From IMG/VR virus record IMGVR_UViG_3300009788_000304, positions 1 to 23,484 of that record: 23,484 nucleotides of DNA; one strand, given 5' to 3'. Each line of letters opens with the position of its first letter. The stretch's first letter is position 1. Shown one piece after another: positions 9,844-23,484 of this stretch. The position numbers were made by a program, and so were the translations under genes. This DNA comes from a virus. Under the pieces are notes generated by a model. That model was not told the origin of the DNA, searched no databases, and worked only from the letters and a program-made list of their open reading frames with translations.

Positions 9844-10116
9844 CTAGGCCAGTGCTCTTTGTTGCCCGTGTAGTTCGCGGGTGCACCCGTTATCGCAACT
9901 CGTGCCGCGCATATGTTCGCCTGGGTAGTATTCGTCCCAGCCGCTATCGCTAAAGGCCTTTGCGCACTCTATGTGCATGGCGCTGGATTGAAAGTCCATG
10001 TCGTGGATGCCAGTCCAGCGCGAGTACTGCTCGCCCTTCGGTATCTCTTCAAGGCAGTAGTTACACTGATGCGCCTTGCGGGCCACCGGAGTCGTTGACG
10101 ATAGGGTTGTGCTCAC
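9844..10116 (-). CDS. Small zinc-binding phage protein
   Basis: A 90-residue protein. The chosen start is the GTG at 10116, which overlaps the preceding stop (GTGA); longer frames lie inside that gene. It has HQCNYCLEEIPKGEQYSRWTGI followed by SAMHIECAKAF and a late CDNGC. The C-x-x-C...H-x-x-C arrangement with RWxG between is a recurring phage zinc module that I recall but cannot name. Role unknown. Confidence 0.68.
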   Translation of the reverse strand: MSTTLSSTTPVARKAHQCNYCLEEIPKGEQYSRWTGIHDMDFQSSAMHIECAKAFSDSGWDEYYPGEHMRGTSCDNGCTRELHGQQRALA

Positions 10117-11009
10117 GCCGCGCCCCCCTCCACTACTGGCAACTTCAACTCCCTCACCATCTCGCGGGGCGTCTTCCACCGCTGCCCTGACTTCTCCGGC
10201 AACTGCCCCCGCCTGTCCTTGTCTGCCTGGAGCCCCGTGCATCCATAGAACGGGGTCTTGTCTACGTGTTCGATGAAGCGTAAGGATTTCTCGAGGAGGG
10301 CGATGCGCTCTTGCGCGTCCTTGCAATCAGATTCCCATTCCGCCGCGCCTTCCTCGACGCCGTGCGCTATCAGCTTGGCTTCGTCGGTTTCCCGCTTCAG
10401 CCGCTCGATGTCATCGCAGGCCGTCAGCACCATAGAGTAGAGCGTGTTAGGCGTGCCGGGCTTGCCATAGCCTACCGCCTCCAAGCGATCAAGCAGGTCA
10501 ATGGCGTTCCGTTGCGGAACACAGGTGGCGTTTCGGTCTGCGAGTTCACGCCGCGCCGCCTCAAGCGCCTCCAGCCGACTCGCCGCCAAGCCTTCCCATT
10601 CGGTGGCGCGTTCGCGTTCGCGACCCTCCAGCGCGTCCATACCAGCCTTCGACATCAACCATGCGCGTATGTCGATCATCTCGTAACATCTGTAGAATGA
10701 TTTGGCATAGATGCGGGTTTCGCCGAGGTTGTGCTTGTTCTGGCGTATGTAGATTTCGCAGGCGTGTTCCGTGAAGGCTACCATGACATCGCGCCAGTGG
10801 TCCTTGTAGTACACCTTCCGCGCCCCAGGCGTGGCCTCCGTCGTTTCCTCGCAGTCATCGTCAATCCAGACATAGTCCACGGCATAGTCCGGATGATATC
10901 CGTATTCTCTCCGCCTCTCCTGAACGCAGAACATCGGCTCGGCGGTGCATCGGTCGTCTTGCGTCTTGAGCCGTGCCGCGATTGCCAGTAATTCGCAGTC
11001 GAGCTTCAT
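10113..11009 (-). CDS. Phage hypothetical protein with coiled-coil C-terminal half
   Basis: A 298-residue protein. The N-terminal 125 residues contain TQDDRCTAEPMFCVQERRREYG, YYKDHWRDVMVAFTEHACEIYI and NKHNLGETRIYAKSFYRCYEMI, a block I recall from many uncharacterised phage proteins. From about residue 125 to 250 it is rich in E, A, R and L with heptad-like spacing, probably coiled coil. The start ATG at 11009 has GGGGA about 4 nt upstream and overlaps the stop of a 35-codon leader frame (ATGA). It is the first full gene of the replication operon and lies just after a strong terminator, so its expression should depend on read-through. Confidence 0.72.
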   Translation of the reverse strand: MKLDCELLAIAARLKTQDDRCTAEPMFCVQERRREYGYHPDYAVDYVWIDDDCEETTEATPGARKVYYKDHWRDVMVAFTEHACEIYIRQNKHNLGETRIYAKSFYRCYEMIDIRAWLMSKAGMDALEGRERERATEWEGLAASRLEALEAARRELADRNATCVPQRNAIDLLDRLEAVGYGKPGTPNTLYSMVLTACDDIERLKRETDEAKLIAHGVEEGAAEWESDCKDAQERIALLEKSLRFIEHVDKTPFYGCTGLQADKDRRGQLPEKSGQRWKTPREMVRELKLPVVEGGAA

Positions 11010-11113
11010 CCAATCCCCATTCTAGCATATCGAATGACACAAAAAAGCCCCGCAGCGGTGCTAGGTCGCGCCGGAGGGCGCAGACTTTCCGCTGCGGGGC
11101 CAGACTTCAACAT
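11006..11113 (-). CDS. 35-residue leader peptide frame upstream of the replication operon
   Basis: The ATG at 11113 has a perfect GGAGG (11124-11120) 6 nt upstream. The frame runs 35 codons through the terminator hairpin and its T-run, and its TGA (11008-11006) overlaps the next gene's ATG at 11009 as ATGA. The peptide is rich in A, P, G and R with no known motif. Its Shine-Dalgarno lies in one arm of an inverted repeat, so base pairing would hide it. The design suits a leader peptide whose translation is coupled to attenuation and to the next gene, but translation is not proven. Confidence 0.5.
   Translation of the reverse strand: MLKSGPAAESLRPPARPSTAAGLFCVIRYARMGIG
11041..11100 (-). terminator. 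Intrinsic terminator between recombination and replication operons
   Basis: The 12-bp perfect stem GCCCCGCAGCGG/CCGCTGCGGGGC followed by TTTTTT (11046-11041) on the minus strand is a strong intrinsic terminator. It should stop transcripts coming from the recombination operon and also those starting at the promoter at 11148-11176. The long 30-nt loop contains the A' arm of element 1, so pairing of A with A' would compete with its folding. Confidence 0.85.
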
Positions 11114-11141
11114 GGTGAACCTCCGGCTTTGACGACCTAGC
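11041..11141 (-). ncRNA. Structured RNA with interleaved A-B-A'-B' stems (element 1)
   Basis: Read on the minus strand. Arm A is GCTAGGTC (11141-11134) plus GCCGGAGG (11127-11120). Arm B is GCCCCGCAGCGG (11100-11089). Arm A' is CCTCCGGC (11077-11070) plus GACCTAGC (11067-11060). Arm B' is CCGCTGCGGGGC (11058-11047), followed by six T. A pairs with A' over 16 bp with a 6x2 internal loop; B pairs with B' over 12 bp. The pairs cross, so the stems exclude each other or make a pseudoknot. AAGTCTG occurs on both sides of B. The predicted transcription start is at the first base of A, so promoter, structure and terminator define a transcript of about 100 nt. It is either a stand-alone small RNA, an attenuator, or both. 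Confidence 0.55.
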
Positions 11142-11147
11142 GCCAGC

Positions 11148-11176
11148 ATTCAACCCCAAGCCGCGCGACCTGTCAA
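11148..11176 (-). promoter_or_regulatory. Strong sigma-70 type promoter of the replication operon
   Basis: On the minus strand TTGACA (11176-11171), a 17-base spacer, and TTGAAT (11153-11148), four of six matches to TATAAT. The predicted start, 6-7 nt further, falls on the G at 11141, the first base of arm A of element 1. It lies directly after the HNH gene ending at 11184. Confidence 0.68.
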
Positions 11177-11183
11177 GACAAAT

Positions 11184-11570
11184 TCAGGAAAGCCTCCCCA
11201 GCGAACGCCGCGGCTTGAACTGCTTCACCTTGCCGAGAGTTGAGAGGCGATCGCCAGACAGGCCCACAAGTTCCCCGGTGTTTCGGTAGCGCGTCGCTTC
11301 TCCGATCACAAAGCCTGGTGCCATGCGCGCGGGCATCGGTCCTTCGGTGTCGCCAAGTCTACAGCTAGGGAATAGCGCCATCCACATTCCCAAGTTGACC
11401 ACCCGCGCCCTGACCGTCTTCGCGAGCTGTTGGCCGCAGATGGAGTGATAGAGCGAATGGCAATCGCGGCATGCCGGTACTTCGCCCTCATCTGCACCGC
11501 CTTGGGACTTCGGCCACGGGTGGTGAGGATCGCGCGCGAGCTTGCCGCAGCAGATGCAGAGGGTTGTCAC
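11184..11570 (-). CDS. HNH-type nuclease
   Basis: A 128-residue protein with CICC near residue 5, then DPHHPWPKSQGG and PACRDCHSLYHS. This matches the HNH beta-beta-alpha-metal finger: one CxxC pair, the catalytic HH, a second CxxC pair and a final histidine. The chosen start is the GTG at 11570 overlapping the preceding TGA (GTGA) with AAGG upstream. The remaining 70 residues have no known motif. It ends the recombination operon, next to a terminator and the replication promoter. HNH proteins in such places may process recombination intermediates, assist packaging, or be mobile; the operon overlap argues for a built-in function. Confidence 0.78.
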   Translation of the reverse strand: MTTLCICCGKLARDPHHPWPKSQGGADEGEVPACRDCHSLYHSICGQQLAKTVRARVVNLGMWMALFPSCRLGDTEGPMPARMAPGFVIGEATRYRNTGELVGLSGDRLSTLGKVKQFKPRRSLGRLS

Positions 11571-11761
11571 TTTGCCTTGTACCCGTTCCGCCCCGCCCAA
11601 CTCAAGCAGAGCCGTTCGATCAAGGCCCCGCGCGTGATCTTCCGCTCCTCCGCTTTGCCGGCGAGGAAGTCCGCAAGCTCGGCCCGGGACCGTGTCGTCG
11701 GGTCCAGCTTGTTTGACAGCTTGTCCCTGCGCCTGTGCGAGGGTATAGCTTTCCGGGGCAT
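11567..11761 (-). CDS. Small basic hypothetical protein
   Basis: A 64-residue basic protein, overlapping the upstream gene (TAATG) and the downstream gene (GTGA). It begins MPRKAIPSHRRRDKLSNKL and has a helix RSRAELADFLAGKAEERKITRGALIERL, which could form a helix-turn-helix or ribbon-helix-helix-like unit, though I cannot match it to a family. It is likely co-translated with the Rad50-like ATPase and the HNH protein. Confidence 0.62.
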   Translation of the reverse strand: MPRKAIPSHRRRDKLSNKLDPTTRSRAELADFLAGKAEERKITRGALIERLCLSWAGRNGYKAK

Positions 11762-13155
11762 TACTCCACCACCTCGCCGTCCTCGATGACGACCGCGCCC
11801 TCCGATGGGCCAGCGTCCGGCATCACCTGGGCCTCGATGAGCCGGAACCCCTTCTTGACGGCCATCTCCGCGACCGTGCGCTTTGTCTTCTTGTCCATCT
11901 TCTCCGCGTCGTCGATGAGCACGACCTTCAACATCTTATTCTCGTTCAGCTCCATCGAGACGGCGCACGATATTACGGCAGTGGCCGATTTGCCCGCCTG
12001 GCTGAACGGCTTGCCCTTGTAGGTGACGACGCCTTCGTCGCTGAAGCCGAGGCCCTTGACCGGCAACCGACTCTCGGCGTCGACGAGCATCTGTTTCTTG
12101 TCGACGTCAAGCTGTTCGATATGCGCTGTGAGGTCGTCGGCCTCTGCCAACGCGGCCTTGTAGTCCGCTCCTGTCTTGGCGTGCTTCGCGTTGCCGCGGA
12201 CCTTCGCGTTGATCGCGTCGGCGTCGTCAATCTGGCCGCGCACGTCGTCCTCGTTCATGGGCGCGAACTCCGCGAGCTTCTGTATCGTGTCCGACTCGGC
12301 AACCTCGGCGTGGGCGATCTCTGCCGCAGCGGCCGCCAGCTTCTCCTTAGCCTCGACCAACGCAGAGCGCATCCCGCCGAGTCGAGACGAGATATTTGCG
12401 AGGTCCGTGTCCAGCTCAGAGCCTTTCGCGTTGTGCTTGCTGCGGCGGTCCAGCTCGGCCATGAGTTCCGCGACGACGACCTCATCTTTCGGAGCGTCTT
12501 CGTGGAAGGTGGTCGCGCCGTGCTCGGCTTCAAGCCTCTTGACGTCGCGGTTCACTTCAGTCCGCTCGTCAAAGAGTCCCTTGCGCTTGCCGTTGATCGG
12601 CACGAGGTCAAGGCCGGCCAGCTCCGCGAGGATCTGCTGCTTCTCCGCGTCGGGCATCCTCTGGAACTTGAGGGGATCGAGCGCGATGCAATCCATCAGG
12701 ACTTCGAAGATCGTTTGCGGACTGGCGAGCGAGTGTCGCTGGCCGTCAATTCTCAGCGTCAGCTTCGGTTTCTGGCCGCGCTTGAACTCACGAGTCGCGA
12801 CGAGCTGTCCAAACTTCTCGACGCCCAGGCTCGGGTCGTCGATGTCAACCGGGCGCTCGATGTCGAAACGCGAGACGACCTTGCCCTCGCCGTGATCGTC
12901 GTGGATGGGGTCGGCGGGGATGACCGAAGCGCCCGCTATCGACATCTCGATACTCTTGAGGGCAGAAGTCTTACCCGACTCGTTCTCGCCCTGGATCGTG
13001 ACGACGTTGCCGTGTTTGTCCATGTCGAGGCTGAATGCGTTGATGCGGAGGACGTTCTCTGCCCGGACCGATGTCAGCTTGACCGACGTGACTTCTATCA
13101 GCTCGTCCGGCAGGTCCTCTTTCGTCGGTTGCTTCGCCTTGCGTTTCTTCGCCAT
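11761..13155 (-). CDS. Rad50/SbcC/SMC-like ATPase, short coiled-coil type
   Basis: A 464-residue protein. Walker A GENESGKT is at 56-63 after an NVVTIQ strand, as in RecF/SMC/Rad50 proteins. The middle (about 180-360) has heptad-rich helices (VNRDVKRLEAEHG, DLANISSRLGGMRSALVEAKEKLA), a short coiled coil. Near the C-terminus FSQAGKSATAVIS (about 384) may be the ABC signature, and VVLIDDAE (411-418) is Walker B. The start ATG at 13155 follows GGACA and opens MAKKRKAKQP; the longer frame back to 13290 overlaps the RecT-like gene. It lies between the RecT-like protein and the HNH gene, and a YqaJ nuclease sits upstream, so it probably acts in DNA end processing with them. It is much shorter than SbcC, and no SbcD-like phosphoesterase is visible. 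Confidence 0.78.
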   Translation of the reverse strand: MAKKRKAKQPTKEDLPDELIEVTSVKLTSVRAENVLRINAFSLDMDKHGNVVTIQGENESGKTSALKSIEMSIAGASVIPADPIHDDHGEGKVVSRFDIERPVDIDDPSLGVEKFGQLVATREFKRGQKPKLTLRIDGQRHSLASPQTIFEVLMDCIALDPLKFQRMPDAEKQQILAELAGLDLVPINGKRKGLFDERTEVNRDVKRLEAEHGATTFHEDAPKDEVVVAELMAELDRRSKHNAKGSELDTDLANISSRLGGMRSALVEAKEKLAAAAAEIAHAEVAESDTIQKLAEFAPMNEDDVRGQIDDADAINAKVRGNAKHAKTGADYKAALAEADDLTAHIEQLDVDKKQMLVDAESRLPVKGLGFSDEGVVTYKGKPFSQAGKSATAVISCAVSMELNENKMLKVVLIDDAEKMDKKTKRTVAEMAVKKGFRLIEAQVMPDAGPSEGAVVIEDGEVVE

Positions 13156-13180
13156 TGTCCTGTCCCCTTCGTGTATTCCC

Positions 13181-14326
13181 CTAGAGCAAATCCATCGCCT
13201 TGATGAGGCGGCGACACTCATCCTTGAGCGTCCCGGTCGTTGTCGTCGAGATTTCCTTTCGATCCTCGCCCGCCTGACGCGCGAGGTCACTGTAGAGCTT
13301 CACGACCGCGATGCGCTCCGCCCGCATGTCGGCGTCCGTCTTCGGCTCTGGCGCGTCCAGCACCGCGAACCGTGCGTCACGCGGCGGCTCATCCGCGACG
13401 GCGCCGAGCGACATCTGGCCGCTCTTGGATGCCGCCGGAGCGGGCGCGGTAGTGTCGTCAGATGACTCCGGCTCCTGGCGGACGCCGCCTTGCTGCGCGC
13501 CCTCGATAGGCGTTGACGATTCGGCGAGAGACTCAGACAAGGGTTTCTCGTCTGGCGAGGGAGCGGGGAGGCTTGGCGTCGAAGAAGCCGTTGCCGACTT
13601 GACCGCCTCCTTGATCTCGTCGCGGTGCGGCGGGATGACCTCGACGTCAATATCTCTCGGCCCGATGTCTTCCAGCTCCGCCACGGTCCGCATGCCGAAA
13701 AGAATCTCGGGGTGGTAGACTCGGATGAGATTCATCGCCGCGCGGTAGCGCAGCATCATCTCCGGCATCACCGTCCACTTTGACGGGATTGTCCCCTTCC
13801 CGTTGCGAAGCGTCACGGGCTTCGTCCATCCGGCGCGGTTCGCGTCGGCAATGCTGCATGACATCTCGCACTTCTCGCCGCTCTTCGCGTCGATCCCCCA
13901 CGCGGTGCATTCGCGGTCCTGGCCGTGCTTCTCGCCGGTCATCTTGTACTGGATCGGCCCCTCGAAGACGCAAGCATTGTTGACGAGCGCGATTGCCAGC
14001 TTCGACTCCATGCCCGGAGTCCCGTAGACGACATAGACATTCTGCATGAATCCGAGGACATCCGCGCCGTGCTTCAGCGCCATCGCGATCACGATAGCGC
14101 AGTCGTTCTTCTTGTCCTTGTAGCGGTCCGGCACGAGGCCGGAATTCGAGAAGACCTCGGCAACGCGCATCAGATTGTCGATGCCCTTTGCCGCCTCGAC
14201 GGACCATATCCCGCCCACGCCCGATTGGATCGTTTCGAGCGCGAAGCTCTCCTGCTCCTGCTTCGGCTTGGCCTTCTTGCGGCTCTTCTTCTTCGCGCCC
14301 GTCGTCTGTCCTGTCCCCTTCGCCAT
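13181..14326 (-). CDS. recT: RecT-family single-strand annealing protein
   Basis: A 381-residue protein. Residues about 45-235 have the RecT pattern: LMRVAEVFSNSGLVPDRYKDK, AIVIAMALKHGADVLGFMQNVYVVYG, GMESKLAIALVNNA, then WTVMPEMMLRYRAAMNLIRVYHPEILFGM. This family anneals complementary single strands coated or exposed by a partner exonuclease. Residues about 240-330 are a low-complexity S/P/E linker, followed by a helical C-terminal tail. The lysine-rich N-terminus is also disordered. The ATG at 14326 has GAGGTGGG just upstream. It pairs with the YqaJ exonuclease immediately upstream, the usual two-component phage recombination set. Confidence 0.84.
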   Translation of the reverse strand: MAKGTGQTTGAKKKSRKKAKPKQEQESFALETIQSGVGGIWSVEAAKGIDNLMRVAEVFSNSGLVPDRYKDKKNDCAIVIAMALKHGADVLGFMQNVYVVYGTPGMESKLAIALVNNACVFEGPIQYKMTGEKHGQDRECTAWGIDAKSGEKCEMSCSIADANRAGWTKPVTLRNGKGTIPSKWTVMPEMMLRYRAAMNLIRVYHPEILFGMRTVAELEDIGPRDIDVEVIPPHRDEIKEAVKSATASSTPSLPAPSPDEKPLSESLAESSTPIEGAQQGGVRQEPESSDDTTAPAPAASKSGQMSLGAVADEPPRDARFAVLDAPEPKTDADMRAERIAVVKLYSDLARQAGEDRKEISTTTTGTLKDECRRLIKAMDLL

Positions 14327-14391
14327 GTCCCACCTCGCATTCTGTTGAGAAGCATACAGCCCGCGCCGCCCATGTCCAGCATATTCCCGGT

Positions 14392-15519
14392 TTATTTCTT
14401 GCCCGCCCGGACCTTCTTCCAGTAAGGCCGGACGGACCGGGCCGCGCGCGTCTTGATGGTGTGCTTCTGGATCGCAGCCTTCACGTCCTCGGGGAAGAGC
14501 TTCTTGACCGTGGCGAGCAACATGCTCTCGTCAACTATGACGCGGCTCGACTCCGTCGCGGCCTTGAACTCCTCTGGATGTGCCATGTCTATCTCGTGGA
14601 GCGCGTCCTCCAGCGTGAACCGCGACCGCTCAGGCCCCGCTTTGTTCGTGACCTTGCCGACGTCAGGATCGAATATCCCCGCGTTATCGCCGATGGCCGT
14701 GGCCACAAGAGCCTTTGCCTCGACGTAGTCTTGCTCGGCGACCTTCGTGGCGTCGTGCGCCGCCTTCATCACGGCGAGTAGTTTGCGCTCGTCGGCATTC
14801 GCCTCAATGACGTCGCTCTTCTTCTCGGGCGCGAGAAGATCGGCGGGCGGCACCTTCTTCTCGATGTGCTCCGTCCAGAAGTGCTTCTCGCCCTTGATGA
14901 GCAGCTTGATCGTTGCGTCATCGCGGTCAATCGGGAAAACGGCGAACTCCGTGAGCGAATGCGGGCGGCTATTCTGAAGCTCGACGAACTCCGCGACCTT
15001 GCTGACATGCATGCCAGCGCGGATCATGTGCTGGAGCGCGCGGAACATATCGTTGTCGGCGAAGAGCACCACGAACTGATTCCGCTTGGCGCCCATGACG
15101 GCCATCTCGTGCTGTGCCTGGATGTAGTAGTCGATTGGCACCATCGGCGTCCCCGGGTCGCCGAACTTGTGACGAACCCAGGCCGAACTGGTTTTGACTT
15201 GGACCGCCGAGTTGATCCCGTCGTCAATCGCGTCAGGCGTCGCGGCCATGAAGGCGAAGTCTTTTGAGACAACCCACGGCCCCGGCAGGATCTTCCGGTC
15301 GACGCTACGCTCATAGAGGCGGATGACTAGCGGCTCCAGCTCGAGGCCGCGCTCCATGACCTCAGTCGATTCATCGACGACCGCGCCGATCTTGCTTTGG
15401 TATACCTGATAGGGGGATCGGTACGGCGACTTGCCGATTGCCGCGGCCGCGTCCGATCCGCCGAGAAATCCCCGTCTTTTCTCAAGCCATTCAGATTTTG
15501 ACATTTCCGCTGACTTCAT
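14392..15519 (-). CDS. YqaJ-like viral exonuclease (lambda exonuclease superfamily)
   Basis: A 375-residue protein from the ATG at 15519 (an ATG at 15534 is possible). GFLGGSDAAAAIGKSPYRSPYQVY (18-40) is the YqaJ N-terminal signature. ELEP (60-63), ATPDA with D96, and QVKT (107-110, K109) follow, and YYIQAQHEMAV is the usual helix after the active site. These exonucleases resect duplex ends 5' to 3' for the annealing protein. One oddity: the D...ExK active site has Q107 where glutamate is usual in lambda exonuclease; I believe some phage YqaJ proteins also read VQVK. It overlaps the upstream 79-residue gene and precedes the RecT-like gene by 65 nt. Confidence 0.82.
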   Translation of the reverse strand: MKSAEMSKSEWLEKRRGFLGGSDAAAAIGKSPYRSPYQVYQSKIGAVVDESTEVMERGLELEPLVIRLYERSVDRKILPGPWVVSKDFAFMAATPDAIDDGINSAVQVKTSSAWVRHKFGDPGTPMVPIDYYIQAQHEMAVMGAKRNQFVVLFADNDMFRALQHMIRAGMHVSKVAEFVELQNSRPHSLTEFAVFPIDRDDATIKLLIKGEKHFWTEHIEKKVPPADLLAPEKKSDVIEANADERKLLAVMKAAHDATKVAEQDYVEAKALVATAIGDNAGIFDPDVGKVTNKAGPERSRFTLEDALHEIDMAHPEEFKAATESSRVIVDESMLLATVKKLFPEDVKAAIQKHTIKTRAARSVRPYWKKVRAGKK

Positions 15520-15730
15520 CACTCCCCGTCCCTTCATTCGCCGCCCCCATACTCGCCAGCGTCGGCACAATCTCATCCACCGTGCATCCGAGCATCACGG
15601 CGATCTGCCGCAGCTTGGCAAGCGCCGCGTTCCGCTCTTCCCGGAGTGCGTCTTCGATGGCGTGGCCTTCGTCTTGGGCTGCGCGGCGGCGGTATGTGGC
15701 TATGACTTCGAGGGATTCGTCTTTGGGCAT
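15491..15730 (-). CDS. Small helical hypothetical protein
   Basis: A 79-residue protein from the ATG at 15730, whose first bases overlap the previous stop (TGATG). It is mostly helical and charged (RRRAAQDEGHAIEDALREERNAALAKLRQIAVMLGCTVDEIVPTL). The end, LRQIAVMLGCTVDEIVP, resembles the tail of an XRE-type helix-turn-helix (LA..L.V....L) but the domain is incomplete. It overlaps the YqaJ start by about 29 nt. Confidence 0.62.
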   Translation of the reverse strand: MPKDESLEVIATYRRRAAQDEGHAIEDALREERNAALAKLRQIAVMLGCTVDEIVPTLASMGAANEGTGSDEVSGNVKI

Positions 15731-15945
15731 CAATCCACATCCCTCCTCGCGTCAAAAGCGTCCTCGCGTGCAGCCTCCCGCGCGTCGTCCTCGCATCGCA
15801 GCCTGTCCTCTTGACATTCGCAGGGGACCGCGCCGCCGCCCTTGCATGTCCGGCATGTCGTGCCGTCGTACATTCCTTCGCCGCTTCCGTTGCAGTCGGG
15901 ACAGGTGAGTGTGGCTTCGTCGTGGCAGAGGTTGCAGTCGGACAT
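15730..15945 (-). CDS. DnaJ-type zinc-finger small protein
   Basis: A 71-residue protein with four cysteine pairs: CNLC, CPDCNGSG, CRTCKGGG and a final CEC. CxxCxGxG repeats are the DnaJ cysteine-rich zinc domain. No J-domain is present, so it is a free zinc module, as in many phages. The ATG at 15945 has GAGGAAG just upstream and overlaps a preceding TGA (TGATG). It is the first confident gene of the recombination operon. Confidence 0.74.
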   Translation of the reverse strand: MSDCNLCHDEATLTCPDCNGSGEGMYDGTTCRTCKGGGAVPCECQEDRLRCEDDAREAAREDAFDARRDVD

Positions 15946-16574
15946 CACTTCCTCATTCCCATAGAGATAGCCAAGGGGGATAGAACAGCGGTCCACCGGC
16001 TACGGTGGCATATCCTACCCCCCGAGGCTTGCGGTTTATCGCCCTCACCGCCAACGGGTTTAGTTACCGACTTTCCTTCGTCGCGGACCTGCGTGTTTGG
16101 CTCTGGAGTGGTGGCCTGGCGCAGTATGCGCCGCCCGCCAGGTCTAAGCCAGGCTACTTTATCCGCGCGTTCACGGAGGCTGCGAACCCTCCGGTGGTCG
16201 TTGAAGAAGAGGGCGCCGGGCAAGCCGCGCATTGTGGGCCTCCCTGGGTTTTGTACAGCGCACTTTCCCAGTGCCCCGGCACCCAAATCCACACGGTCCC
16301 GGAACCAGAACGTACCGGCATTGGCCCACTCTTCCCATGTGACTAGAGATAGATCAGCGACGGCGGGATTGGATACCCGCCGTGTCCCCCTCGGCCCTCT
16401 GGGGTCTATTCGGACGGACCGGGGCTGCGCAAGACCCCCCGCCGCGCGCGGCGCCGCGCCGCTGATCTCAAAGGAAAGGGTCCGGCCGGTCGTTGGCGGA
16501 CACCCGGGAGAAGCCGCCCGGATAGGCGGCATCGGCGTGGCATCCCCGACCGGACCCATACTTGTGTGATACAT
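15945..16574 (-). CDS. Doubtful 209-codon leader frame over the structured region
   Basis: From the ATG at 16574 (GGGAG 5 nt upstream, promoter at 16604-16632) an open frame runs 209 codons and its TGA overlaps the next gene's ATG (TGATG). These are good signals. Against it, the first 70 residues are low-complexity P, G, R and A, the DNA is packed with hairpins, and a 252-codon frame is open on the opposite strand too, so openness means little here. The part VTWEEWANAGTFWFRDRVD looks more protein-like. I recognise no family. It may be a true gene with a structured 5' part, or a by-product of structured RNA. Confidence 0.3.
   Translation of the reverse strand: MYHTSMGPVGDATPMPPIRAASPGCPPTTGRTLSFEISGAAPRAAGGLAQPRSVRIDPRGPRGTRRVSNPAVADLSLVTWEEWANAGTFWFRDRVDLGAGALGKCAVQNPGRPTMRGLPGALFFNDHRRVRSLRERADKVAWLRPGGRRILRQATTPEPNTQVRDEGKSVTKPVGGEGDKPQASGGRICHRSRWTAVLSPLAISMGMRK
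15946..16470 (-). ncRNA. Highly structured leader region, possible large RNA
   Basis: This stretch between the element 2 stems and the recombination operon holds many inverted repeats: AGATCAGCG/CGCTGATCT (16351-16359 and 16460-16468) enclosing ACGGCGGG/CCCGCCGT (16360-16367 and 16376-16383), GGGGTCT/AGACCCC (16401-16407 and 16432-16438) and GCCGCGCGCGGC (16441-16452), which together draw a multi-branch junction. Further down are CGGAGG/CCTCCG (16174-16179 and 16188-16193), GCGCA-GTA-TGCGC near 16120-16132, and CCACCG-GCTA-CGGTGG (15993-16008). Such density suggests functional RNA, though GC-rich DNA makes chance stems common. Confidence 0.35.
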
Positions 16575-16596
16575 TGAAGCTCCCGTATCCGCCAAC
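16478..16596 (-). ncRNA. Structured RNA with interleaved A-B-A'-B' stems (element 2)
   Basis: Read on the minus strand. Arm A is GTTGGCGGATACGGGAG (16596-16580); arm A' is CTCCCGGGTGTCCGCCAAC (16510-16492). They form 17 pairs with one U-G and a two-base bulge, hiding the GGGAG Shine-Dalgarno. Arm B is GGGTCCGGTCG (16557-16547), pairing with CGACC-GGCC-GGACCC (16492-16478), 11 bp with a 4-nt bulge. A hairpin GCCGCC/GGCGGC (16530-16513) sits between B and A'. The stems cross exactly as in element 1. TTTCCTTT follows B', a weak T-tract. The predicted transcript starts at the first base of A or the base before it. Confidence 0.52.
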
Positions 16597-16603
16597 TGTG
16601 AAT

Positions 16604-16632
16604 ATCTAATCACATGGCGCACGGGCTGTCAA
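16604..16632 (-). promoter_or_regulatory. Promoter of the recombination operon
   Basis: On the minus strand TTGACA (16632-16627), a 17-base spacer and TTAGAT (16609-16604). The predicted start at about 16597 is at arm A of element 2. An interrupted palindrome TTTCC-T-GGAAA (16639-16649) lies just upstream of the -35 and could bind a regulator. The -10 is only a partial match. Confidence 0.55.
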
Positions 16633-18385: not shown

Positions 18386-19252
18386 TTACGGGTCACGGCG
18401 AGTAAGCATCTCGAACCCAAGCGTCTTGACCGTGATTGTCGCTGCGCCATTAGGATATGATGCGTAGATTTCTATTTGACTACTGCCATCAACTAGGACT
18501 CGGCCGCCACGCCCCATACCTTCTACTATCCCAGTATCCGGGTTATGAGTAATCCACGGAGCATTCGCGCCAGCCAAGCCCCCGTTGATCTCAATAGACA
18601 TGAGAGATGGCACGCCTCCCGCAGCCGCAGCCGTCGAATTGCTGAATGTCCCTGCAACCCGCGCAATGCTGCCGGGTGGCGCGGACAGTGTTTGCGTTGA
18701 CTTCGTGGTTGATGCGGTCGCGACTGCGTTCACGTCGGCGAAGAAGACGCCCCACTCGAAGATAGCTCCCTGTTGGGTATACGCGTAGAGGTTGGCCGAC
18801 CCGTCCGTCTTTACGGTCGCAATCAGCCGCTTGCTATCGTAGTCCGTCGGCATCGTCGGCGCAGAGAACGACGTCAAGAACAGCGCGTCCACCACGCCGG
18901 TATCGGATCGCTTGATGAGCCAGATTGCGTAGAGGGTATTGTTAGCAACAGAGCCCGCGTCTATCCCGCCCGCGTCGTCTCCGACAGCCCATGCCGCGTC
19001 GATCTGCTTCGTGAGGACGGCCGCTAGAACCATGTTCGTTACGTCGTCCGCGCTGCGAGCTACGCCAGCCGCGATGTCAATGTCATGGTCAGCATCGGTT
19101 CCGTTGCTCGTGATGAGCCCAGCGATGTCGTTCAGGGGCAACGGAAGCTCGGAGGCAGGCACCTGCTTGTCAACGCCGCTCTGCTGAACAAGTAGCTTGT
19201 CGGCTGCCACGACATTCGAGCCGACGTCCAACTCTCCAAGGCGCTTCGCCAT
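18386..19252 (-). CDS. Tail fibre or baseplate-associated structural protein
   Basis: A 288-residue protein. Residues about 40-150 contain LNDIAGLITSNGTDADHDIDIAAGVARSADD, TNMVLAAVLTKQIDAAWAVGDDAGGID, NNTLYAIWLIKRSDTGVVD and MPTDYDSKRLIATVKTDGS, a module I recall from many phage fibre and receptor-binding proteins. The C-terminal half is a beta-rich region, ending with TITVKTLGFEMLTRRD. The ATG at 19252 follows GAGGTGG. It comes after the gpI/DUF2612-like gene, where fibre genes are usually found. No receptor specificity can be read from the sequence. Confidence 0.72.
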   Translation of the reverse strand: MAKRLGELDVGSNVVAADKLLVQQSGVDKQVPASELPLPLNDIAGLITSNGTDADHDIDIAAGVARSADDVTNMVLAAVLTKQIDAAWAVGDDAGGIDAGSVANNTLYAIWLIKRSDTGVVDALFLTSFSAPTMPTDYDSKRLIATVKTDGSANLYAYTQQGAIFEWGVFFADVNAVATASTTKSTQTLSAPPGSIARVAGTFSNSTAAAAGGVPSLMSIEINGGLAGANAPWITHNPDTGIVEGMGRGGRVLVDGSSQIEIYASYPNGAATITVKTLGFEMLTRRDP

Positions 19253-19263
19253 CGGACCACCTC

Positions 19264-19824
19264 CTACAGACTGAAATTCACTTCGAGGTCTTCGCCGTCA
19301 TAGGTGCTACCCGTCAAGATGAATGCCTCGTCGTCGTATGTGCTGCCTGTCAACTCCAAGGCCTCAGCCACGATTACCTTGACGCCAGTGGGCGCCGATG
19401 CTTCGAGGGCGCTAAAGAGGTCAACTGGCAATTCGCCGGTCGTCGGCGTCAAGCGAATCTTCCCGGGGTAGATAGGCTCATACAGTATCCCCGTTGCAGC
19501 CGCCAACTGGATCATCCGTTCAATCAACTGCTCGGGCGTCCCGCTCGCCGTGATCCGTGCCGCCTTCGCATGCAGGGCCAAGCGATAGTTCACGTCATTC
19601 TGGCCCGCGCGCGGCTCCGTCAGAATATCCCCGATGCCGTCAAGCTGCGCCCCAATCATCGTGTCGATATTGAGCAAGTCGAGCATCGGAAAGACCGCGT
19701 CTTCGATGTCCTGCACTTCTGCGGCAATCGCGCGGACAAGGGCGATCATCAATTCCTTGCCAACGAACTGCTCGGGCAGCCGCGCTTGCGCGCGATCCTC
19801 GTGGTCCGTGATCTGCGTCACCAT
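19264..19824 (-). CDS. Baseplate protein, gpI/DUF2612-like
   Basis: A 186-residue protein with LNIDTMIGAQLDGIGDILTEPRAGQNDVNYRLALHAKAARITASGTPEQLIERM (53-106), the DGIG...(P)R.G..D..YR...A.I..N.S.GT core of DUF2612-type and P2 gpI-like baseplate proteins linking the baseplate to fibres. The C-terminal 30 residues contain two LTGSTYDD/LTGSTYDG repeats, probably the site touching the fibre. The ATG overlaps the baseplate J stop (TAATG). Confidence 0.72.
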   Translation of the reverse strand: MVTQITDHEDRAQARLPEQFVGKELMIALVRAIAAEVQDIEDAVFPMLDLLNIDTMIGAQLDGIGDILTEPRAGQNDVNYRLALHAKAARITASGTPEQLIERMIQLAAATGILYEPIYPGKIRLTPTTGELPVDLFSALEASAPTGVKVIVAEALELTGSTYDDEAFILTGSTYDGEDLEVNFSL

Positions 19825-21269
19825 TACGGAGCCTCCGAGACCGGGATGCGGGCCGTGTCGAAGAGCAAGAGCGTGTCTGCGTCGACCGCGATGTCACCCG
19901 CGCCATAGCCCGGTGTGTCGCCCGGGTTCGGCGTGACGTCGATGGTCACGACCACGCTCTGCAGGCCCGGCACGGTCCAGCACGCGGCTTCCAACTGTTG
20001 CACGAGGAGGTCTTGCCCCGGCGCGAAGTCAGCGCCCAAGGCGACAATCGCGTCCTTGATCGCATCCGCTCCATCGGTCGGGAATTCACTCTCGGAGTGC
20101 AGCGTGTAGACGACCTTGACCCATGCGTATTCGTTCACGGGCCGCGAGAAATTGATATCCTGATTGTTGCCCTGCGAATCCACGACCACCTCAGCCTCAC
20201 TGCCGAATGACGCGATGCCCGCAGGCTGTACCTCCCAGAGCTTGTCGGCCACGGCTTGATCGGTCCCGCCCTGGACGATGGCGTGGTATGAGTGCGCGGG
20301 CTGGCCGCTCACCACGGAGTCAGTGCGGTTGCTTATGATCGTGACGGATGAGACGCCCGGAACCTCGTCAAGCAGCCGACTCCTGATAGCCTCGTCGGTC
20401 GCGTAGCCCTGTCTGGCGGACTGGATGCGCAAGCGGAGCTCCACGTCTGTCTCGACGTCGCGGCCGACAATCGCATCCTCATAGTTCGTGACTGAGGCAA
20501 GGCCCGCAACCGGCGTGTCGATGACGGTGATCGTCCCGGCGAGCCCAAGAATAGAGCCCGTATTCTGGGCGGTCGTGGCGATGGGCGATGCGCGCTCAGT
20601 GATGTCGAGAGACCCGGCGCCAGTGGCCGCGACCGTGACAGAGTAGCCGGACTCCAGGTCGGTGGAGCGGATGAAGAACGATCCGTCCGCGTTGTCGGTC
20701 GCGTCCATGACGACTGAGTTGGTATTGATCTCAGTAACCAGAGCGTCAGCGATCTCAAGAGCCGTCGCGCTCCCGTCGCTCGTGATCTCATGGTCAACGC
20801 CATTGATGGTTACGGTGTAGTCTTGGCTGTCGTCCACGCCATCCACGTCAATGACGGCATTGATGGCGTTCGCAATGTCGATGGTAACCGCCGCGTCTGA
20901 CTCGAAGACCTCCGCAGTATCGTCAACGGAGAACTCAGTGGATATCGGAACCACGGTGCCTTGCGTGCCCGTCGCCGCGATAATCGACGTGCTGTTGCCG
21001 GCGGCGATCCGGGCCAGCCCCACAAGCTGCGCCACGTTGTCAAGCTGCGTGCCCTCTGCGCTGGCAGGATAGACGCCGAAGTAGACCGCCTCGGAAAGCT
21101 CCCAGACCGTGGACAAGCGTTCGGCGGTGACGCCCAAGAGCTTCCCGAAGACCCCATCTTCCGCCATGTTGATCGGGCCAAACGTGGCCTCGAGTTCGGT
21201 CCGCAGACTATCGAGGATGTCTTGCAAGCGCTTCCTGACAAAGCCATCTGAGGTCAGGCCGTAGCTCAT
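19824..21269 (-). CDS. Baseplate J-like protein
   Basis: A 481-residue protein matching the gpJ/Mu gp47 family: an N-terminal GVFGKLLGVTAERLSTVWELSEAVYFGVYPASAEGTQLDNVAQLVGLAR segment, RIQSARQGYATDEAIRSRLLDEVPGVSSVTIISN in the middle, and HSYHAIVQGGTDQAVADKLWEVQPAGIASFGSE, then a final domain with VPGLQSVVV. An inserted beta-rich part (about 125-250) is larger than in P2 gpJ. It forms baseplate wedges with gp25. The ATG overlaps the gp25 stop (ATGA). Confidence 0.9.
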   Translation of the reverse strand: MSYGLTSDGFVRKRLQDILDSLRTELEATFGPINMAEDGVFGKLLGVTAERLSTVWELSEAVYFGVYPASAEGTQLDNVAQLVGLARIAAGNSTSIIAATGTQGTVVPISTEFSVDDTAEVFESDAAVTIDIANAINAVIDVDGVDDSQDYTVTINGVDHEITSDGSATALEIADALVTEINTNSVVMDATDNADGSFFIRSTDLESGYSVTVAATGAGSLDITERASPIATTAQNTGSILGLAGTITVIDTPVAGLASVTNYEDAIVGRDVETDVELRLRIQSARQGYATDEAIRSRLLDEVPGVSSVTIISNRTDSVVSGQPAHSYHAIVQGGTDQAVADKLWEVQPAGIASFGSEAEVVVDSQGNNQDINFSRPVNEYAWVKVVYTLHSESEFPTDGADAIKDAIVALGADFAPGQDLLVQQLEAACWTVPGLQSVVVTIDVTPNPGDTPGYGAGDIAVDADTLLLFDTARIPVSEAP

Positions 21270-21643
21270 ACCAGCGTCTCCTCAAAGTCAACAGGACCAT
21301 ACACCGTATCCACGGTGAATGCAACGGAAACTGTTCGCGTGGCTGCGTCGATGCTCGACGCGTATGTCAACAGGCGGTTGACGCCAGCGGTTGCGATGAT
21401 CGCGGCGCGGAGAATCGAGTCAACCACCTCGACGGGCACGCCCTTTTCGAGGATTTCCTGATACCATGGGATTCCGGCATCTGCGTCGAGGAACCACTCG
21501 CCCTTGAAGAGTTGAAGGATGACCTTCAGGCGTTGCGCCACAAGCTCCGATCCGGACACCGTGGCGAGGTCGCGGTCCGTGAAGGTTAGGTCATTCGTCG
21601 TCACGTCCAACGCTAGATCGACGGTCGGGATGATCTCGCCCAT
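21266..21643 (-). CDS. Baseplate wedge protein, GPW/gp25 family
   Basis: A 125-residue protein with the gp25-like pattern: DLALDVTTNDLTFTDRDLATVSGSELVAQRLKVILQLFKGEWFLDADAGIPWYQEIL, i.e. an acidic start, a QRL...L..F.GEWFLD..GIP.....L core, and a VDFEETL end. It joins sheath and baseplate. The ATG overlaps the previous TAA (TAATG), and it precedes baseplate J as usual. Confidence 0.88.
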   Translation of the reverse strand: MGEIIPTVDLALDVTTNDLTFTDRDLATVSGSELVAQRLKVILQLFKGEWFLDADAGIPWYQEILEKGVPVEVVDSILRAAIIATAGVNRLLTYASSIDAATRTVSVAFTVDTVYGPVDFEETLV

Positions 21644-22245
21644 TAGATGGTCCCCGTAATTGTCTTGATCGCGGCGCTCGCGGCGATAATGTCTGTCGCA
21701 ACATACGGAGGAGTGGCGCCGGCAAACCCGGCGACCGCGTCGTCAAGTGCCTTGGCGACCTGCTCTAGAAGCTCCACCGTTGCGTTCCCAATGGCGACCT
21801 TCTCGTCTTCGAGCTTGACCTTGGTAGACCCATCCTTGAGCACCGTGCCCGTCTCGCCAGTCGGCCCATCCTTGAAACTGAAGGCGCCCGGAATGGCGAA
21901 GGCATCTGACATCGCGTGCGTGCGTGCGTCGCCAGCATCTACCTCCGCGCCTTCGGAAAGCCAACGGTCAATCGACCACTGAGCGAAGACGATCAAGACG
22001 GGGTCGCCAGCCGCAATCGGAAGCGTGAGGCTGGCGGTGCGCGTTCGCGGCAAGACGACAGGCACATTAGAGATGACCGGCGGGGTGAGTATCGTCCCAT
22101 CCGAATACCTCAAGCGCACGAGCGGCCGCACTTCGGCCTTGCCCGTGGTCAAGTCATACTTGACGACCTCGCCGGGAATCGCCGTATTCATGGCAATCGC
22201 CTTCGAGTCTATCATCGCCTGCATGACCTCGATGAGGCTAGGCAT
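21643..22245 (-). CDS. Baseplate spike protein, Gp138 N-terminal/gpV-like
   Basis: A 200-residue protein from the ATG at 22245 (GGGAG 7 nt upstream). IPGEVVKYDLTTGKAEVRPLVRLRYSDGTILTPPVISNVPVVLPRTRTASLTLPIAAGDPVLIVFAQWSIDRWL is the OB-fold of Gp138-type spikes, then a short beta region (DGSTKVKLEDEKVAIGNATVELL) for the membrane-piercing needle. It overlaps the hub gene's end by 8 nt. The helix is short, so it is a small spike. Confidence 0.74.
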   Translation of the reverse strand: MPSLIEVMQAMIDSKAIAMNTAIPGEVVKYDLTTGKAEVRPLVRLRYSDGTILTPPVISNVPVVLPRTRTASLTLPIAAGDPVLIVFAQWSIDRWLSEGAEVDAGDARTHAMSDAFAIPGAFSFKDGPTGETGTVLKDGSTKVKLEDEKVAIGNATVELLEQVAKALDDAVAGFAGATPPYVATDIIAASAAIKTITGTI

Positions 22246-23089
22246 TGCTCGACTCCCGAACGCGAAGCGTTGACGACCAATCGCCTTGATGCGTGTCACC
22301 CGCGTGCGTTACCTCTTTGATATGGTAGATGCCGCTCGCGTCGGCAATGTCGCTCACGATTTCGACGCGGTCGCCCGGCCCGAGCTCCGGTCGGAGAAGC
22401 GCCTTGACCTTCCAGCCAGATGATTGAGGCGCTGGCGTGATTGTCGATGTGTCCACGTCGCGCGTCGGTATGCCTATCAGGCCAGTCTTGGCGGAGAGCT
22501 TGAAGACAGGGCTTCCGTTGTGCCCGAGCTTCGGGGCAATCTGAAGCTCATTGTTCTGGAAGCTCCACTGAGCATTGATCTTTCCCATGAGCTTGTCGAG
22601 GATATCGCCGAGCGGGCCCATCTCGGAGAAGCCGTTTGCGAAGTTGGCATCGTCAACCTCGATGAGACTCTTGAGCGTCACGCCCGCATCAGCCGCGATC
22701 TTCGCGATGATTTCCTTGACCGACGTGCCTTCCTTGAAGGAATACGCCGACTTGACCTTCAGAAATTCCACGCCATCGCCGAGCCGCACGACCGTGATGA
22801 TGTCCGGGCCAGCCTGTTCCGTCACGATGTCCAGGATGTCCGCGGTGATGACGAGACGGCCCTTGTATTCGTCTTGACGGTAGCCCGCTTCAAGCTCTAG
22901 CGCATCGCCGATGTTCCGTATCTTGTCCCGGCTGAATTCCGCGAGGTTGAAGATGGACACGGTGCCGGAGTTCGGCGTCGCCTCATTCGATTTCGTGATG
23001 CTGAAGACAACGCGCATATCCTTAAACTCAAAGGCTTTCGCCCCGCGCGATCCGATCTTCACGGTGGCGAATCTGTCAAAGTTCGGCAC
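22238..23089 (-). CDS. Baseplate hub / late control D-like protein
   Basis: A 283-residue protein. MRVVFSITKSNEATPNSGTVSIFNLAEFSRDKI (25-57) and LELEAGYRQDEYKGRLVITADILDI match the N-terminal barrel of gp27/gpD-like hubs; KEGTSVKEIIAKIAADAGVTLKSL and a late GDRVEIVSDIADASGIYHIKEVTHAGDTHQGDWSSTLRV match the later domain that binds the spike. The start is GTG 23089 with GGAGG 6 nt upstream. It lies just before the spike gene, as usual. Confidence 0.7.
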   Translation of the reverse strand: MPNFDRFATVKIGSRGAKAFEFKDMRVVFSITKSNEATPNSGTVSIFNLAEFSRDKIRNIGDALELEAGYRQDEYKGRLVITADILDIVTEQAGPDIITVVRLGDGVEFLKVKSAYSFKEGTSVKEIIAKIAADAGVTLKSLIEVDDANFANGFSEMGPLGDILDKLMGKINAQWSFQNNELQIAPKLGHNGSPVFKLSAKTGLIGIPTRDVDTSTITPAPQSSGWKVKALLRPELGPGDRVEIVSDIADASGIYHIKEVTHAGDTHQGDWSSTLRVRESSNA

Positions 23090-23405
23090 GTTCGGCCTCC
23101 GGAATGTAGATGAGATGCAATCGCTCGCCCAAGTCGCCGAAGACGATGGGCTCGCCTGTCTCTGTGGTGTCGATCACCATGAGCGCGCCTTGCGGCAACG
23201 CGGCGATGTGCCGTGTGTTGTGGAGCAAGTCATAGTCAGGCACGACCTTGATGGCGCCATGAATCAGCACGTCGTCACGCGTCCAGAATTCCACAGTCCA
23301 ATACTGGCCCCGGTAGTTCCACTTGAAGATGAGCGTGAAGGGACGCGAGTCGAGGTCTACGTCGATGGAGTATTCCGCGACGGCGCGGAGCGGTATCGTT
23401 ATCAC
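23076..23405 (-). CDS. Baseplate plug-like protein (Pam3 gp18-like)
   Basis: A 109-residue protein beginning MITIPL, followed by FTLIFKWNYRGQYWTVEFWTRDD, then IHGAIKVVPDYDLLHN and LPQGALMVIDTTETGEPIVFGDLGERLHLIYIPE. This fits the small plug protein described in the Pam3 cyanophage baseplate, recognised from memory. The GTG at 23405 overlaps the preceding TGA (GTGA), so it is coupled to the partial gene upstream. It lies before the hub, as in that phage. Confidence 0.58.
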   Translation of the reverse strand: MITIPLRAVAEYSIDVDLDSRPFTLIFKWNYRGQYWTVEFWTRDDVLIHGAIKVVPDYDLLHNTRHIAALPQGALMVIDTTETGEPIVFGDLGERLHLIYIPEAERAEL

Positions 23406-23484
23406 TCTATGACACCCACTCCCTGCAATGTTCGGTAGAGCAGGGACGCCTTTGCCGTCTCGCCTTCGGAGTCAGTAGGCGGCG
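23402..23484 (-). CDS. C-terminal end of an upstream baseplate-region gene (partial)
   Basis: An open frame enters from the right edge and ends at TGA 23404-23402, overlapping the plug-like GTG as GTGA. The last residues read PPTDSEGETAKASLLYRTL and then QGVGVIE. The overlap pattern, common in this operon, supports it as a real gene end. Too short to identify; by position it may be another tail or baseplate component. Confidence 0.5.
   Translation of the reverse strand, partial: PPTDSEGETAKASLLYRTLQGVGVIE

Follow-up and report, generated by a model that had tools for sequence, protein, structure and literature searches.

The IMG/VR virus record IMGVR_UViG_3300009788_000304 was analyzed over its complete length of 23,484 bases (the whole stretch is termed the window herein). 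It is a phage genome fragment without end repeats that encodes baseplate proteins and, on the minus strand, a recombination cluster (YqaJ exonuclease, RecT-like protein, and Rad50/SbcC-like ATPase). Two leader elements on the same strand, E1 (positions 11176 to 11041) and E2 (16632 to 16470), head the two minus-strand operons. Both consist of a sigma-70-type promoter, an arm A that contains a Shine-Dalgarno sequence (SD), an ATG, an arm B, the arms A' and B', which pair with A and B, respectively, and a terminal T-rich tail, so that the two helices are interleaved (A-B-A'-B').

Architecture and gene context of E1 and E2

In both elements, arm A lies at the predicted +1 position, beginning 7 nt (E1) or 8 nt (E2) past the -10 box, and it carries the SD of a leader frame that starts at the following ATG (Table 1). 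The -10 box of E2 is preceded by TGA (extended -10). A preliminary description of this DNA had proposed this order of parts, the promoter type, the start of the RNA at arm A, and the SD within A, and all of them lie where it had placed them. A simple promoter/terminator scan of the window missed both E1 and E2, because their terminator loops are 30 to 56 nt long and their -10 boxes are weak.

The E1 leader frame terminates in ATGA (11009 to 11006), which overlaps the start of the next gene, and the E2 leader frame terminates in TGATG (15947 to 15943) at the start of its next gene. The operons had been described as one for recombination and one for replication. The former agrees with the recombination genes behind E2, which are flanked by small open reading frames (ORFs), but the latter is weakly supported for E1: a family search with genes 10113 and 8440 gave no replication-family match, and the sole replication-type hint is one weak RuvC-like match lying downstream.

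Table 1. Positions and parts of the leader elements and of the genes that follow them. Coordinates refer to the window unless prefixed with a locus of the related phage.
Feature	Coordinates	Strand	Sequence or parts	Remarks
E1 promoter	11148..11176	-	TTGACA (11176-11171), 17-nt spacer, TTGAAT (11153-11148)	read directly
E1 arm A1	11132..11141	-	GCTAGGTCGT	at predicted +1; partner 11069-11060, 10 bp
E1 arm A2	11120..11127	-	GCCGGAGG	holds leader SD; partner 11077-11070, 8 bp
E1 leader frame	11006..11113	-	MLKSGPAAESLRPPARPSTAAGLFCVIRYARMGIG	35 codons; ATG at 11113; crosses terminator
E1 arm B	11089..11101	-	GGCCCCGCAGCGG	starts +12 from A of ATG; partner 11058-11046, 13 bp
E1 arm A'	11060..11077	-	CCTCCGGC + GCGACCTAGC	anti-SD + partner of A1
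E1 arm B' and tail	11041..11058	-	CCGCTGCGGGGCT + T6	resembles intrinsic terminator
First gene after E1 (gene 10113)	10113..11009	-		298 aa; PHROG 3205; function unknown; Ea22-like
E2 promoter	16604..16632	-	TTGACA (16632-16627), 17-nt spacer, TTAGAT (16609-16604)	
E2 arm A1	16585..16596	-	GTTGGCGGATAC	at predicted +1; partner 16503-16492, 12 bp
E2 SD arm	16580..16584	-	GGGAG	partner 16510-16506, 5 bp
E2 leader frame	15945..16574	-		209 codons; ATG at 16574; weak coding signal
E2 arm B	16546..16557	-	GGGTCCGGTCGG	starts +17 from A of ATG; partner 16489-16478, 12 bp
E2 apical hairpin	16513..16530	-	GCCGCC-TATCCG-GGCGGC	within B-B' domain; kept in E2'
E2 arm A'	16492..16510	-	CTCCC-GG-GTGTCCGCCAAC	pairs with SD arm and A1
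E2 arm B' and tail	16470..16489	-	CCGGCCGGACCC + TTTCCTTT	U-tract interrupted
Operon headed by E2	11184..15945	-		small ORFs flank recombination genes
YqaJ exonuclease	14392-15576	-		E2 operon
RecT-like annealing protein	13181-14326	-		E2 operon
Rad50/SbcC-like ATPase	11761-13155	-		E2 operon
E2'	L267:15693-15861		TTGACT-16-TATTAT, GCTGGCGGATAC, GGGAG, ATG, GAGCCCGGCCGG, CTCGC..GTGTCCTCCAGC, CCGGTCGGGCTC, tail ACCTTTTC	E2 homologue
E3	L278:7647-7780		TTGACG-17-TAACTT, TGGATAGTTG, GCCGGAGG, ATG, GGACGCCGCAACAG, CCTCC..CAACTGTCCG, CTGTTGCGGCGTCC, tail TTTTCTTT	E1 homologue

Homologous elements in a related phage

A scan of genome contigs with the tail protein gp47 identified a related phage on contig JASJYE010000002.1 (loci L267 and L278), whose gp47 is 74% identical to that of the window and whose tail and lysis genes are colinear with it. 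The contig is binned in a metagenome-assembled genome (MAG) of Candidatus Hydrogenedentota, a hint that the window phage may infect this phylum; gp47 was unmatched in 67 further genomes of this phylum. A DNA-level search of phage records found none near the window. The window phage itself was recovered from another sample as a contig (L254) that spans 18866 to 23479 only.

The relative bears both kinds of element, an E2 homologue (E2') directly behind the same lysis-region gene as E2 and an E1 homologue (E3). Of the 35 pairs compared between E2 and E2', 34 are kept: 27 are unchanged, 4 differ on one side yet still pair, and 3 are double changes (in the A helix, U-A to C-G; in the B helix, G-C to A-U and U-A to C-G). 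The remaining pair is broken. This agreement is lost when the partners are slid by 1 to 3 columns. E3 has the identical GCCGGAGG, the same A length (22 nt), and the same peptide start (MLK) as E1, and the gene just behind it is the homologue of gene 8440, not that of gene 10113. Because MAFFT misaligns A' there, E1 and E3 were aligned by hand, anchored on the SD, the equal A length, and B'; in this hand alignment, 9 of the 10 A-helix pairs are double-changed with pairing kept, and double changes affect 4 of the 13 B-helix pairs.

The promoter layout of E1 recurs in E3 and E2', and common to all four elements are the distances from the -10 box to A (7 to 8 nt) and from the ATG to B (11 to 17 nt). 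The preliminary description had remarked that E1 and E2 keep their pairings under differing stem letters; with E3 and E2', homologues with covarying A-A' and B-B' helices, which it had named as its test, have now been found, and both lie upstream of early-operon genes of the relative. Other proposed common features fared less well. E1 and E2 share the linker words TTCA, ATGT, and AAGT, but this conservation does not extend to the homologues (ATGC and AAAC occur in E3; E2' reads ATGA and is devoid of TTCA), and the stop/start overlap is real in E1 and E2 and occurs in three of the four elements overall but is absent from E3.

Where an element would be expected ahead of the gene 10113 homologue, L267:20695-20745 contains a T-tract and a promoter-like stretch only (GTCTTTTTTGTCTACAATATCC), which resembles the DNA just downstream of E1; it is maybe the remnant left after the element moved ∼1 kb to the place of E3. 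Directly behind E2', two tandem paralogous small genes (MPRKFKVGDRVRVV... and MPYKFKVGDRVKVI...; L267:16085-16545) replace the small cysteine-rich ORF of the window.

Behind E2 (window 15945 to 16475, minus strand), two further tandem long-loop terminator-like stems were observed (16468 to 16351 and 16284 to 16211), and likewise behind E2' (L267:15862-16087, plus strand) the stems AAGTGGGCGACG/CGTCGCCCACTT followed by GATTTT and GGGGGCGCTGGC/GCCAGCGCCCCT followed by TGTCTTTT. T-tailed stems, E2 itself included, number 3 in the window and 5 in L267, versus 0.2 and 0.05 in shuffles, and the sequences of these regions are unalignable between the two phages; the stems may represent attenuators arrayed in tandem or one long structured RNA. 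Another interleaved site, the third and a weaker one, spans window positions 16338 to 16200 on the minus strand (A, GTGGGCC ahead of AATG; B, GGGTGCCGGG; tail, TCTTCTTC). Further A:A' modules at the remaining E2-leader hairpins were rejected, as the 16284-16211 hairpin alone reaches a marginal level (11 of 300 shuffles were equally good). On the plus strand at 16335 to 16350, CCATGTGACTAGAGAT matches the -10 region of the E2 promoter in inverted orientation (88%), and by its sequence this region (TTGGCC-17-TAGAGA) could drive a convergent antisense RNA; it is not seen in L267 and was rejected as a part of the system.

Rarity of the architecture and evidence for a class

E1 and E2 are the top two distinct sites with strong interleaved helices in the window, and none of 500 dinucleotide shuffles of each element matched the pseudoknot score of E1 or E2. 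A detector of the architecture, which requires an SD, a start codon, A over the SD, B, A', and B' in this order, scored the two elements at -53.3 and -51.8 and the next window site at -41.6. In a rarity scan of 275 loci (4.37 Mb, both strands) with one spacing window and a required U-tail, scores of ≤-44 kcal were found at E1, E2, and E3 only, and at no site in shuffles. If the elements were ordinary strong terminators or palindromes, their A:A' complementarity would have arisen by chance, for which the GC-rich genome and the other long-loop terminator-like hairpins in the E2 leaders, which have no convincing A partner, could be cited. The shuffles, the absence of other sites from the 4.37 Mb, and the pairing that the relative keeps with changed letters all speak against it; in view of the homologues it is strongly disfavored, and we consider it hardly credible.

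Neither the cmscan of the whole window against Rfam 15, RF01695 (c4) included, which gave no match at the gathering threshold, nor a relaxed search around E1 and E2, with chance-level subthreshold matches only, identified a known family, in agreement with the earlier view that the elements are undescribed. A tRNA or tmRNA identity was also rejected. Against phage records, blastn returned no meaningful match for E1, E2, or E3; in IMG/VR, neither the linker DNA pattern of E2 and E2' nor the lipoprotein adjoining E2 was matched; and nothing was found in scans of viral contigs with YqaJ or RecT singly. Alignment-based scans with the ATPase, RecT, and a topoisomerase-like protein yielded 240 distant loci, in which no element scored above chance. 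An apparent match in the relative L200/L253 was rejected because it sits inside a helicase gene. In 68 genomes of the phylum of the MAG, searches with gp47 and with covariance models (one per pair of elements) returned the known contig only, with convincing scores at the known sites alone; the other model matches inspected (L280, L282, and L283) do not have the architecture.

Two kinds of motif were seen in passing on other IMG/VR contigs. A weaker look-alike in 3300014656_000051 (L173:11180-11330, plus strand), with GGTGAGCG/CGCTTGCC interleaved with AACGGGTGTG/CACACCCGTT and followed by TTGTTG, scores at chance level in the scan. A near-perfect 22-bp inverted repeat (GCGCAGCGGGGAGTGATCGGCG / TGCCGATCACTCTCCGCTGCGC) recurs within a few kilobases of recT across three contigs of the RecT scan (L134, L136, and L126).

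The covariance model of E1 and E3 matched E2 weakly (17.7 bits; E value of 0.011 in 1.47 Mb), E2 ranking first among its sites once the training pair and its own reverse strand are set aside; in the reverse search, the E2 model found neither E1 nor E3. Together with the shared layout, this one weak cross-match lends weak support to a common descent of the E1 and E2 types, whose likeness may also have arisen by convergence. The proposal that the elements form one RNA class is thus upheld in part: the order, spacing, and pairings kept under sequence change in four members support a class that joins E1, E2, and their relatives, but the class is narrow (two phages), and the homology between the types is weak. 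Since the relative keeps the pairings with different letters, the elements appear to form a new and small family of RNA on/off switches.

Predicted folding, a proposed attenuator, and known systems

The folding of the nascent RNA was predicted for all four elements. Up to A', A:A' forms in each of them, with mean pairing probabilities of 0.81 to 0.97 and 79 to 100% of the SD paired. With B' completed, B:B' prevails over A:A' in E1 and E2 and nearly equals it in E3, and E2' still folds mainly as A:A' until its tail has been transcribed; in the full RNA, all four have shifted to B:B'. When A was left out, mimicking a ribosome at the start codon, B:B' was predicted at -27 to -53 kcal, and when B was covered, B:B' did not form.

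On balance, and with slightly more confidence than doubt, we read E1 and E2 from sequence and modeled folding as cis-acting transcription attenuators at the 5' ends of two minus-strand DNA-metabolism operons. The RNA would begin with arm A and the SD that it carries. On leaving RNA polymerase, A' would pair with A, thereby hiding the leader SD and keeping B off B'; if A were occupied, A' would remain free and B:B' would form as an intrinsic terminator, stopping transcription ∼100 to 125 nt after +1. Since B starts where the front edge of a ribosome initiating the leader peptide would lie, such a ribosome would be the most likely occupant, and once it moved onto B, the terminator would be blocked again and transcription would continue. 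A ribosome would thus have opposite effects according to its place, favoring termination while waiting at the start codon and preventing it while on B. The antiterminator arm would double as the ribosome-binding site of the leader, and the phage might benefit by having the operons set by translation state or infection stage.

The leader frames are open beyond the terminator in all four elements (35, 28, 209, and 111 codons, with 35 in E1 and 209 in E2), and the peptides (MLKSGPAAESLRPP..., MLKLDAATEHATSF..., MYHTSMGPVGDA..., and MNHTSMSPAGSA...) contain no codon run. Beyond the elements, where the sequences are unalignable, the E2-type frames of both phages continue as far as a stop/start overlap (TGATG and TAATG), with chance probabilities of staying open of 0.004 and 0.13; their codon signal there is weak. 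Judged by sequence, the terminators of E1 (T6) and E3 (TTTTCTTT) are strong.

Several observations weigh against attenuation as proposed. Inside the elements, shuffles keep the leader frame open 57 to 80% of the time, which makes its openness there weak evidence. The tails of E2 (TTTCCTTT) and E2' (ACCTTTTC) are weak, and with such poor U-tracts termination may be weak or Rho assisted. The A helix of E2' carries a mismatch and a bulge, and in a column-shuffle control of E2 and E2', which has little power with two sequences, 56 of 500 shuffles reached the observed value. The members come from two phages only. Finally, the mutual exclusion of A:A' and B:B' is an outcome of a model restricted to nested pairs, as interleaved helices could coexist as a pseudoknot.

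Such a coexistence of A:A' and B:B' would make a pseudoknotted OFF structure, with the SD hidden and transcription terminated, and ribosomes would then only antiterminate, by melting B. The 1- to 2-nt gap between A' and B', together with an RNA 5' end at the first base of A, would make end-to-end stacking of the helices possible, and the leader frame crosses B' in all four elements; the loops, however, would have to span helices of 10 to 17 and 12 to 14 bp, and nested folding favors exclusion. We regard this structure as rather unlikely.

The energies of A:A' and B:B' within an element are -26 to -34 kcal, whereas those between E1 and E2 are -13 kcal or weaker, so each element recognizes itself and the copies should not set one another through their arms. 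Strong pairing specific to each element would also be expected of control in trans, of the immunity or small-RNA type, in which termination at B' frees an RNA of ∼100 to 125 nt whose A' pairs with A on new leaders, blocking the SD and provoking or preventing termination, like P4 CI RNA or Gifsy-1 IsrK, both prophage precedents (PMC4825925). In keeping with it, A', which complements the SD arm, lies within the B-B' domain loop, and the A arms of E1 and E3 have diverged almost wholly yet keep their pairing, as in immunity-type self-recognition. All parts needed are nevertheless present, and fold, in cis, and c4 and related Rfam families are unmatched; we think control in trans unlikely.

Outside the helices, E2 and E2' have blocks that are exactly conserved at the RNA level, third codon positions included (ATCACACAAGTATG and GATGCYGCCTATCCGGGCGGC). 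These would suit binding of A or the apical hairpin by a small ligand or by a protein of phage or host origin, with the SD and ATG merely adding translational control of the leader, but no such block is common to the E1 and E2 types, and neither an aptamer-like core nor an Rfam match was recognized in the elements, which leaves this explanation quite improbable.

Attenuation in cis by a ribosome remains the reading that we prefer. Taken further, the four elements from two phages are a candidate new RNA class, A (with the SD, at +1)-ATG-B-A'-B'-U-tract, in which interleaved helices would wire the start of leader translation to an intrinsic terminator. Whether such a ribosome-occupancy switch, with fast-evolving A arms and self-recognizing copies, sets two DNA-metabolism operons in parallel is a more tentative matter, and we put this full version forward as a possibility somewhat short of probable. 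If true, the same small RNA device would head two DNA-metabolism operons of one phage and would couple their transcription to the translation state of the host without a regulatory protein. The layout is compact and testable: the antiterminator arm at +1 holds the SD, B starts at the ribosome front edge, and the leader frame runs through the terminator. It also offers a pattern by which phages of uncultivated bacteria can be searched for switches of this kind.

Like the leader-peptide attenuators of trp, his, and ilv, the elements combine a translatable leader, a promoter-proximal hairpin resembling an intrinsic terminator, and a competing upstream pairing. They differ in having no run of control codons, in a leader frame that crosses the terminator with no stop before B' (4 of 4), in a competing arm that holds the leader SD and constitutes the RNA 5' end, and in the interleaving of the helices. 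In isrK of Gifsy-1, a prophage intrinsic terminator is followed, in the readthrough mRNA, by alternative structures that gate the ribosome-binding site of an upstream ORF coupled to the next gene (orf45-anrP leader), and the short RNA acts in trans (PMC4825925). The elements resemble it in the prophage-type leader, the terminator, the structures gating a ribosome-binding site, and the ORF coupling, but the ORF of isrK follows the terminator, and the leader SD here precedes it, in arm A; no sequence or Rfam similarity to isrK was found.

The CI RNA of P4 (seqA/seqC) and c4 of P1 and P7 likewise rule a phage operon by complementarity between parts of its own leader and by premature termination, which is Rho dependent in P4. 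Unlike the cis model proposed here, these RNAs, of which c4 (RF01695) has no match in the elements, act as antisense RNAs, and by analogy P4 CI and P1 c4 would be the main models for control in trans. In translational attenuators of the erm and cat type, ribosome occupancy decides through alternative folding whether an SD-pairing arm is accessible. In E1, E2, and their homologues, it is instead the leader's own SD that is hidden, and the U-tract at the end of the alternative fold implies an output at the level of transcription.

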